Source of the DNA: Chthonomonadaceae bacterium | GTDB taxonomy: Bacteria; Armatimonadota; Chthonomonadetes; Chthonomonadales; Chthonomonadaceae | Assembly (NCBI GenBank): GCA_025054835.1 | Contig: JANWZQ010000147.1 | Span: 1-48,489, forward strand | Direction of reading: 5' to 3' | DNA length: 48,489 bases | Shown here: positions 29,675 through 32,300 of the stretch, one piece after another | Layout of the letters: each line of letters opens with the position of its first letter | Position numbering within the stretch: position 1 is the first letter of the stretch | Notes under the pieces: generated by a model | Told to the model about the DNA's origin: nothing | Databases searched by the model: none | What the model saw: only the letters and a program-made list of their open reading frames with translations | Position numbers and translations under genes: made by a program

Positions 29675-30460
29675 TCACTGGCCCGGAGGATAAACGGGAC
29701 GCCACGGGCTGAGAGCGCTTCCGCTGGAGCTGTAGTAGACGGGTCGCCCCTGCCCGTTGTAGCGGGAAGAGTCGGTGGGCACGCGGGCGTCGCGCATCCA
29801 CTTGACATGGCCATCCACGTAGGCCAGATTCATTCCGTTAGTGTGCTTCATGAAGATCTCATCGTCCTCCAGATCCACATCGTTGGAGTCGACATCGGTA
29901 TCAAAGGTGCTCTCCATGAACAGGTACTCTTCCGCAGGGCGTCCCCATGCGGCAAGGCTGATGAAGCCAAGGCCGGTCTCACCGATGACAGAGTCGTTGA
30001 TGCAGTAACTGTTGTGCCAGGCCCACCGGCCATCAGGACGCCGTGTTAGATTGAACAGGGTGGCCAGATCCCACCCGTGAAAGATACGCGCCTGCTGAAC
30101 AACACTGTCACTCACCAGCTGCAGGTTGATGTTGCTGGGACAGGAGTAGATATTGCCCCGGGCATCCGCCCAGTTTCTGGGTGCGCCTTTGATGTAGGGC
30201 ACAAGGACGAACATCCAGAGATCATCCATGAGCTGGGGGCGAGATGGGTCCGGATCCTGCGAGGGGAATGTCTCGTCATAGTCCTGAACATACATCATCA
30301 TGCCGAGAGTGAACTGCTTCATGTTGGAAATGCAGGTTGCCTGACGCGCCTTCTCCCGGGCCTGTGCGAATACCGGGAACAGAATGGCTGCCAGGATCGC
30401 AATGATGGCGATGACCACCAGTAATTCGATCAGGGTGAAACCTCTCGATTTGCAGTGCAT
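29675..30460 (-). CDS. Prepilin-like (type II secretion pseudopilin / DUF1559-type) protein, second copy
   Basis: A 261-residue protein starting at ATG 30460, with AGGAG at 30468-30472 seven bases upstream. The leader is very short (MHCKSRG) before the pilin helix [14 protein letters not shown], with Glu at +5. The following [11 protein letters not shown] block and C-terminal [13 protein letters not shown] (H-X9-DG) are shared with the copy at 5247. Over the first 60 residues the two are nearly identical, and they diverge strongly afterwards, as expected if the globular head has been specialised. No pilus machinery is nearby. A terminator-like hairpin lies past its stop. Confidence 0.92.
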
Positions 30461-30655: not shown

Positions 30656-31729
30656 TCAGGAACGATAGGCGCGGCGGTGAATGGTCTCCCACGTTTCTTC
30701 CGGGATGGAGAGGAACAGATCAACCAGTTCCGGATCAAACTGCGTGCCCCGACAACGACGGATCTCTTCCCGGGCGACAGCAAAAGGCTGTGCAGGACGA
30801 TAGGGCCGGCCAGCCGTGATGGCGTCCAGGGCGTCCGCAATGGCGAACAGGCGGGCACCGGGCGGGATCTGCGCCCCGCGCAGGCCATCTGGATAGCCGG
30901 TGCCATCCCACCGCTCATGGTGATGCCGGACAATCAGCGCAGCCTGCTGCAGAGCGGGGATCGGGGCACACATCTGATAGCCAGTGAGAGCATGCCTGCG
31001 CATCTCATCCCACTCTTCTGCAGTGAGTGGCCCGGGCTTGTACAGAATATGGTCGGGGATCGCGATCTTTCCGATGTCATGCAGGAGAGCGCCTCGTTCG
31101 ATGTGAGTGCGCTGGTCGGTCGGAAGAGCGAGCCGGTCGGCGAGCGCCATGGTGTATGCGGTGACACACTCGGAGTGCCCGGGCGCCTCGATATCACGGG
31201 CGTTGATGGCCGTGAGGAGGGTATCCAGCACGGCCTCCAGAGTGATCGGGGAGGTCGCCTTCTGTGGACGCACACACGTGTGCTGCACATTGTGCCGGGT
31301 GATGTTCCGCTCGAGGATTATGGGTAGGTTGTGCGGGTCAGTCGTCGCCGACAGGAAGTCGCTGGCCCCGGCGTAGATTGCCTGCCGGGCCAGATCCACG
31401 CTGGCCTGCTCCGCAATCAGAATGACGGGCAGATCCGGGTGGAGCTGAAGGGCCTGCGCCATCAGCTGGAAACCGTCCCCATCGCTCTGCTGGACATCGC
31501 AGAGCAGAATATCACAGTGGTCCCGGGCAAGCAGAGCACAGGTCTCGCGGGCAGTGGCCGTGCACCAGACCTCATACCCGGCGGCCAGCAACACCGACCG
31601 GAACGCTTGCTGGCGCGGGGAGGGCTGCATGGCCAGCAGAACGCGCACCGTGGAACAGTCTGCAACAGGGCCGGGAGACCCGATCTCCGCCGGGTTGCTA
31701 CGGGATGCCGGTCCCATTATGACGTGCAT
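30656..31729 (-). CDS. HD-GYP phosphodiesterase with degenerate receiver domain
   Basis: A 357-residue protein. Residues about 28-145 have a receiver fold with the acceptor-position Asp78 (LLCDVQQSDGDG), but the acidic pair normally at the end of strand 1 is replaced (VLLAMQPSPR), and the Thr/Ser and Lys switch sites are not seen, so phosphorylation is doubtful. Residues about 175-350 are a complete HD-GYP domain: LLHDIGKIAIPDHIL, RRHALTGYQ, HHHERWDGTGYP and AIADALDAITAGRPYR, with all metal and substrate residues. It would hydrolyse c-di-GMP. AGGAGG at 31730-31735 touches ATG 31729 but is 12 bases from Met5 (31717), so the true start may be 31717. The gene overlaps the GGDEF-like gene upstream by 32 bases. 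Confidence 0.88.
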   Translation of the reverse strand: MHVIMGPASRSNPAEIGSPGPVADCSTVRVLLAMQPSPRQQAFRSVLLAAGYEVWCTATARETCALLARDHCDILLCDVQQSDGDGFQLMAQALQLHPDLPVILIAEQASVDLARQAIYAGASDFLSATTDPHNLPIILERNITRHNVQHTCVRPQKATSPITLEAVLDTLLTAINARDIEAPGHSECVTAYTMALADRLALPTDQRTHIERGALLHDIGKIAIPDHILYKPGPLTAEEWDEMRRHALTGYQMCAPIPALQQAALIVRHHHERWDGTGYPDGLRGAQIPPGARLFAIADALDAITAGRPYRPAQPFAVAREEIRRCRGTQFDPELVDLFLSIPEETWETIHRRAYRS

Positions 31730-32300
31730 CCTCCTGCGCGTGCTGCTGCAAAACCGAGTAGAGCGCAGTGCTGTTGCCCCTGCGCTGTGCCCGGCGTAGC
31801 GTGGCGATAGCCCGGGCGATCAGATCCCGGGCGTCCTGAATGTCGATGGTCAGGCCTGCCAGCCCAAAGCTGAGGGTCAGCCACGCCTGATCCGCCTCAC
31901 GCGCATAGGCGATCATGGCGTTTCGGAGGCGTTCGGCAAGGGCGCGTGCCTGCGACTCGTTCATAAGCGGGCAGGCCAGCAAGAAGACTGGCAGACCGCA
32001 GGCATCGGTGGCGTCGGTCTGACCGATCACATCATAGGTGCGCGTCTCCTGCTGAACACACCGGACTACCGCACGCCCGACCAGACCCATGTCCTCCCGA
32101 CGGAATGTCGTCAGCATGGGGTTTTCGTCGATGGCGAAAGCAATCAGGGTCAACGGATTATTGGTGCGAGTAACCAGTTCCATCATGGATTGAACGTAGG
32201 CCCGCAGGGCTTCTTCGGTGACTGCCTGCGTGTGCGGGTCCGACGGCAGCAGACTATCCAGGCGCACGATCCCTATCTCCTGTCCTCCTGTGTCTTTCAT
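31698..32300 (-). CDS. Degenerate GGDEF-domain protein, probably not a cyclase
   Basis: A 200-residue protein whose fold pattern follows diguanylate cyclases: LTLIAFAIDENPML in place of the metal-binding strand, a helix with VVRCVQQETRTYDVIG, a strand FLLACPLMNESQARALAERL, then LTLSFGLAGLTID and the final helix AIATLRRAQRRGNS. The GGDEF signature position instead reads about ACGLPVFL, so the loop that binds GTP is lost. A ribosome site is not obvious before ATG 32300. It lies 75 bases after pyrD and overlaps the HD-GYP gene, so the two are probably made together. It may bind a nucleotide or act as a partner domain for the HD-GYP protein. No sensor or membrane part is present. Confidence 0.7.
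   Translation of the reverse strand: MKDTGGQEIGIVRLDSLLPSDPHTQAVTEEALRAYVQSMMELVTRTNNPLTLIAFAIDENPMLTTFRREDMGLVGRAVVRCVQQETRTYDVIGQTDATDACGLPVFLLACPLMNESQARALAERLRNAMIAYAREADQAWLTLSFGLAGLTIDIQDARDLIARAIATLRRAQRRGNSTALYSVLQQHAQEDARHNGTGIP

Follow-up and report, generated by a model that had tools for sequence, protein, structure and literature searches.

The locus studied here raises the question of how an HD-GYP phosphodiesterase is controlled when its own receiver domain is degenerate and the gene overlapping it upstream encodes a GGDEF protein devoid of the GGDEF signature. The window, a stretch of 48,489 nucleotides (contig JANWZQ010000147.1), belongs to a 3.7-Mb genome of a Chthonomonadaceae bacterium of the phylum Armatimonadota (G000). 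The first-pass annotation described two overlapping open reading frames (ORFs), which we found at the positions given in Table 1, and proposed that two degenerate parts around an intact phosphodiesterase indicate control by binding rather than by phosphorylation or c-di-GMP synthesis. Read from the sequence, the stop codon of the GGDEF-like gene falls within the HD-GYP gene, and an AGGAGG (31730 to 31735) abuts the first ATG of the latter (31729), 12 bases upstream of its second in-frame ATG (31717). Translational coupling of the two genes is therefore likely, and the overlap remains with both starts.

Table 1. Position of the two genes and of their domains and motifs in the window
Feature	Position	Strand	Basis
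GGDEF-like gene, 200 aa	31698..32300	-	ORF; catalytically degenerate GGDEF fold (predicted)
REC-HD-GYP gene, 357 aa	30656..31729	-	ORF; Pfam HD_5 and Response_reg; 41-member orthologue group
Gene overlap, 32 bases	31698..31729	-	3' end of GGDEF-like gene, 5' end of HD-GYP gene
I-site motif R87-T-Y-D90 (PleD R359xxD362)	32031..32042	-	R and D invariant in 10/10 members
Hairpin DATDACGLPVF replacing GGDEF (residues 96 to 106)	31983..32015	-	Alignment with PleD and the genome's own canonical GGDEF proteins
R124 (PleD R390, further I-site arginine)	31929..31931	-	Invariant in 10/10 members
Pseudo-receiver domain (about residues 27 to 150)	31280..31651	-	Alignment of 40 readable orthologues
HD-GYP phosphodiesterase domain (about residues 163 to 345)	30695..31243	-	All eight metal ligands

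The upstream protein scored 15.9 bits against Pfam GGDEF, below the cutoff of 23.8, while a weak-or-better match was obtained for 9 of the 10 members of its family, and the family profile matched solved diguanylate cyclases with an E value of 7.1e-10. An AlphaFold2 model computed from the window protein and five relatives (pLDDT, 79; pTM, 0.76) had GGDEF domains as its nearest solved structures, the top one being the c-di-GMP-bound 3ign (Foldseek E value, 1.3e-10; VIA-align Z, 21.6; RMSD, 2.6 over 160 residues). By its predicted structure, the protein thus has the GGDEF fold that had been read from its residue pattern, with modeled strands 91 to 98 and 104 to 111 flanking the hairpin site. No GGDEF signature was found anywhere in the 200 residues, nor was GG(D/E)EF present in any of the 10 family members, among which the former hairpin was longer and variable; the single exceptions at these positions were a D at PleD E370 (G004) and an E at PleD E371 (G007). 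Using PleD as the reference (two MAFFT runs, with its sequence matched to the PDB), the equivalents of D327, D344, G368, G369, and R446 were lost in all 10 members and the position of N335 was deleted in all of them. As aligned, the GGDEF-like protein lacks the residues for c-di-GMP synthesis.

The I-site motif R87-T-Y-D90 had been overlooked by the first-pass annotation. According to the accessible text of PMC7288161, the PleD I-site has four residues, R313 among them. Three of the four were matched in the GGDEF-like protein (R359, D362, and R390 by R87, D90, and R124, respectively), and these three positions are among only 18 invariant columns in the family. The fourth, R313, has L or M in its column; three residues away lies an invariant arginine (R45), and that it stands in for R313 is a guess. 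Also invariant is D58, the second Asp of the strand-1 DxD, the first Asp being lost. For comparison, the equivalents of R359, D362, and R390 were all present in 6 of the 11 distinct canonical GGDEF domains of the genome (an alignment of 12 rows, one protein being represented twice through two loci, drawn from those of the 14 Pfam GGDEF matches that carry a GGDEF-type signature).

Such a combination has precedents. In the part of PMC3509222 that is accessible, SgmT and PopA are described as binding c-di-GMP via the I-site next to a degenerate A-site; in SgmT, the R763A mutation abolished binding, which was competed by c-di-GMP and not by GTP. Like SgmT (Myxococcus) and PopA (Caulobacter), the GGDEF-like protein has a dead A-site together with RxxD and the further I-site arginine, so that no synthesis is expected, and its aligned residues fit the pattern of degenerate A-site plus intact I-site RxxD of these receptors. 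It differs from them in two respects: the GGDEF hairpin is rebuilt, and the domain, which in SgmT and PopA is fused to a kinase or receiver, is here a stand-alone protein of ca. 200 amino acids encoded with an HD-GYP phosphodiesterase.

Searching 291 genomes of the phylum with a family profile, we found 10 members of the GGDEF-like family, each scoring at least 268 bits, the next match (75.7 bits) falling in a larger GGDEF ORF. The gene was the immediate upstream same-strand neighbor of an HD-GYP orthologue in 10 of 10 genomes, with a gap of at most ca. 60 bases by the ORF starts used (approximate for G002 and G016, whose start sites are uncertain). All members come from one bacterial family, where they occur in 10 of the 17 genomes searched (12 of which have a full-length HD-GYP orthologue), and therefore their conservation is partly shared descent. 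They span eight genera with open frames, and because both protein families are conserved across genera, the pair is more than chance. Running the family profile on every ORF of at least 80 amino acids in 46 neighborhood loci (nine pairs, 31 orthologue loci without partner, and six paralogue loci) retrieved, at an E value of 10 or better, no further GGDEF-like gene beside the nine known. In two genomes (G003 and G015), the HD-GYP gene lacks the partner; directly before it lies a gene that we take to be PRC/CBS transporter-like. Since the order is transporter-like, GGDEF-like, HD-GYP in G016, which belongs to the same genus, and in G002, the arrangement points to loss of the middle gene in G003 and G015, where the partner is thus dispensable.

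The downstream protein was recognized by Pfam as HD_5 (129.5 bits) and Response_reg (48.3 bits). A profile built from 18 orthologues delimited a group of 41 in the 291 genomes, all at 439 bits or more, with the next match at 347.7 bits. Its best solved relatives were PmGH (4mcw), a trinuclear c-di-GMP phosphodiesterase, and 5z7c, a cGAMP-specific phosphodiesterase that was the best by sequence. The metal ligands of PmGH, given as E185, H189, H221, D222, H250, H276, H277, and D305 in the accessible text of PMC4159591, correspond to E181, H185, H217, D218, H246, H270, H271, and D299, and all eight were conserved in 41 of 41 orthologues, the window protein included, as was the GYP motif. The catalytic set is therefore complete, as first annotated; only the position of PmGH D183 varied (D in 31, E in 8, and N in 2). 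Given that the nearest solved relatives are c-di-GMP and cGAMP enzymes, the sequence leaves the substrate open, and we consider the protein a predicted phosphodiesterase, probably of c-di-GMP. In its model, the REC and HD-GYP folds were matched in the PDB as separate domains only, and the HD-GYP half was weak in large part (pLDDT of ca. 50 to 70 over residues 161 to 180 and 201 to 290).

Contact between the two products would resemble that of RpfG (Xanthomonas), a REC-HD-GYP protein that works with GGDEF proteins. As described in the accessible portion of PMC3749722, the HD-GYP domain of RpfG binds GGDEF proteins, and this requires the GYP motif and a DxD motif in the GGDEF partner. The former is present here; as for the latter, if the strand-1 DxD is meant, the GGDEF-like family has lost the first Asp and kept D58. 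RpfG differs in having a receiver phosphorylated by RpfC and GGDEF (cyclase) proteins as partners, whereas the window receiver is degenerate and its partner, encoded in an overlapping gene, has no GGDEF. Four other ORFs of the genome (on C76, C16, C62, and C143) combine a canonical GGDEF with an HD-GYP domain in one frame, in three of them with GGDEF first, so that contact between the separate proteins is plausible as well. The GGDEF-like proteins and their partners showed no correlation in pairwise distance (Spearman coefficients of 0.00 for REC and 0.13 for HD-GYP over 45 pairs), so that coevolution as judged by distance was rejected; this argues against a tight complex, albeit on only ten rows.

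Known I-site receptors and the binding between HD-GYP and GGDEF proteins, taken together, make the GGDEF-like protein most likely a c-di-GMP sensor acting with the phosphodiesterase. Our main reading, to which we assign a probability of ca. 0.45, is a two-gene c-di-GMP control unit in which an I-site receptor protein acts with an HD-GYP phosphodiesterase whose receiver has decayed. The upstream protein would be a dead diguanylate cyclase pared down to its product-binding I-site, most likely binding c-di-GMP through R87, D90, and R124 and acting in trans, presumably by contact, with the enzyme from the overlapping gene. Control would presumably run from the level of c-di-GMP to its breakdown by, or the placement of, the HD-GYP enzyme. 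Points against this reading are the uncorrelated distances, the two genomes that do without the partner, the unmatched R313, and a conservation inflated by common ancestry in a single family.

A somewhat unlikely alternative is that the GGDEF-like protein is a scaffold or localization partner only and binds no nucleotide. Its I-site residues, which could be kept for structure, would then serve the fold or an interface. This would agree with the loss of key catalytic and GTP residues in all 10 members, with the lengthened and variable hairpin, and with the complexes of RpfG and GGDEF proteins that, in the accessible text of PMC3749722, control motility without c-di-GMP synthesis. It accounts poorly for the invariance of three I-site positions in a family whose catalytic-site residues vary freely. 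By sequence, c-di-GMP control via the I-site is a plausible reading.

Turning to the receiver, the positions equivalent to what we take to be the key residues of CheY (D12, D13, D57, T87, and K109) are M34, Q35, D78, A106, and A128. Four of the five are replaced and D78 alone is kept, and the alignment with the 39 other readable orthologues recovered no intact acidic pocket, in agreement with the first-pass description of a receiver without acidic pair, Thr, and Lys. By this alignment, the window receiver lacks the residues for canonical phosphotransfer. The fold itself was modeled with a pLDDT of 86 to 93 over residues 31 to 100, 80 over 101 to 110, and 61 over 111 to 120. In the genome's paralogous REC-HD-GYP protein (locus L054, G000:C185), the receiver is intact (DDD, D, T, and K).

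Intact receivers were found in 34 of the 40 readable orthologues, scoring as intact that of G028 (E-D for D-D) and omitting G177, where the gene is cut by a contig end, and G012, present as two fragments only, at contig ends. The six degenerate ones belong to G000, G002, G007, G020, G025, and G196; the Asp is also gone in G002, G007, and G196, and the Lys is retained in G020 and G025. The G196 receiver (L134), from a distant family without the GGDEF-like gene, has a D-P pair, N for Asp, S for Thr, and N for Lys. A tree built from just the HD-GYP domain required five changes to account for receiver decay, and well-supported branches force at least three of these. That all degenerate receivers go back to one origin was rejected (single clade of the six, AU test P value of 0.002); clades of G000, G002, and G007 (P value of 0.022) and of G002 and G007 (0.039) were weakly rejected, and one of G000 and G196 was not (0.31). 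Given that these groups were named after the tree had been seen and that branches are long, the count of decay events should be read as three or more rather than as exact. An rpoB tree of 13 genomes of the family separated G000 from G002 in 98% of bootstraps, no starred branch forcing this split and G007 having no rpoB match. By these trees, receiver decay is a repeated event that occurred at least three times.

The first-pass annotation had treated the two degenerate parts as one joint feature, which the comparison did not support. The partner is dead in 10 of 10 pairs, yet the receiver is intact in 7 of them, and in G020, G025, and G196 it has decayed with no GGDEF-like neighbor. We asked whether receivers decay more often beside a partner (3 of 10, versus 3 of 30 lacking one) and rejected such a link, the one-sided hypergeometric probability of ca. 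0.15 being not significant. With dead partners beside intact receivers, the pair evolved with phosphorylation in place, and the dead cyclase partner probably predates the decay of the receivers. As far as the alignments and trees go, pseudo-receivers have thus arisen repeatedly in particular lineages, and the one in the window is not the counterpart of the degenerate GGDEF-like protein in a matched pair. Control by binding stands as the natural reading for the window protein, where phosphotransfer and synthesis residues are gone and phosphodiesterase residues complete.

In the two-gene control unit that we favor, the observed parts are a conserved pair, lost catalytic residues, kept I-site and phosphodiesterase residues, and repeated receiver decay. 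The receiver would be the original second input, driven by phosphorylation, and in the window lineage and several others it would have become a fold-keeping pseudo-receiver, leaving binding as the remaining input. A more specific version, unlikely as it stands, is that the stand-alone cyclase relic, with nothing but its product-inhibition site left, is a separate c-di-GMP-sensing subunit of the HD-GYP phosphodiesterase that triggers breakdown in trans in response to the product. The phosphorylation input would then be dispensable, which would explain receiver decay in some lineages.

It is also conceivable, if rather improbable, that both degenerate parts are decaying, with some lineages losing the input side while their HD-GYP enzyme turns constitutive. 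Among the 40 receivers, the six degenerate ones hold the top six places in divergence (Mann-Whitney P value of 1e-4, relatedness uncorrected), and the HD-GYP domains attached to them diverge more than those of the intact members (P value of 6e-6, relatedness likewise uncorrected), as erosion would have it, and the partner gene is missing from G003 and G015. However, the catalytic residues of these six divergent domains are untouched, with ligands and GYP motif intact throughout the 41 orthologues, the GGDEF-like family retains open frames and its 18 invariant columns over eight genera, and the receiver fold is mostly predicted with confidence. Continued kinase control by slow phosphorylation of the pseudo-receiver on D78 is very improbable: the residue is retained in the window protein, and the accessible text of PMC12632262 allows that Asp-retaining receivers may be less efficient versions, but both metal-binding acids, the Thr, and the Lys were lost together, and the Asp itself is gone in three of the other degenerate receivers. 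There is next to no probability that the degenerate GGDEF domain binds GTP and thereby controls the enzyme, as in CC3396 of Caulobacter, where, in the accessible text of PMC7288161, such a domain is a GTP sensor for an attached EAL domain, since the equivalents of D327, N335, D344, and R446 are missing in all 10 members.

CC3396 does resemble the window pair in placing a degenerate GGDEF domain beside a phosphodiesterase, and differs in acting in cis, as a GTP sensor, on an EAL-type enzyme, whereas the window pair would act in trans, has lost the GTP residues, and is of the HD-GYP type. With the GTP-contacting residues gone, GTP control of the pair is unlikely, and the partner, on its residues, probably serves as a receptor for c-di-GMP and not for GTP.

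The pseudo-receivers to which the window receiver is comparable (PF00072 class, without phosphotransfer residues) make up ca. 6% of bacterial receivers, and their switching is an open question, according to the accessible text of the review PMC12632262, in which neither "HD-GYP" nor "phosphodiesterase" was found. Unlike those reported, the present case is one orthologue group with repeated decay from intact relatives, so that intact and decayed receivers on the same enzyme offer natural pairs for studying how pseudo-receivers switch. A search by title or start of abstract, with most subscription journals outside its coverage, retrieved no described pair of degenerate GGDEF and HD-GYP proteins, and a search of the same literature for Chthonomonas together with c-di-GMP retrieved no paper. 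A dead GGDEF protein with its I-site kept would be a clean case of a separate phosphodiesterase subunit sensing c-di-GMP, and the gene pair may form a self-adjusting c-di-GMP switch in a poorly studied bacterial group.

Other neighbors of the HD-GYP gene vary. Some 200 bases downstream in the window lies a gene with an N-terminal methylation motif (29675 to 30460, minus strand), which we take to be prepilin-like, and the orthologue in G193 is flanked by a similar one; prepilin-like genes are abundant in Armatimonadota, and this proximity may have no significance. In family f3 (L047, L049, and L050), the orthologue is preceded by a different gene, presumably Lon-protease-like. Upstream of the orthologues of genus g23 (L125 to L127, L129, L131, and L132) lies a small ORF on the same strand that shares a conserved "EFY.A.DG..WLM" motif.
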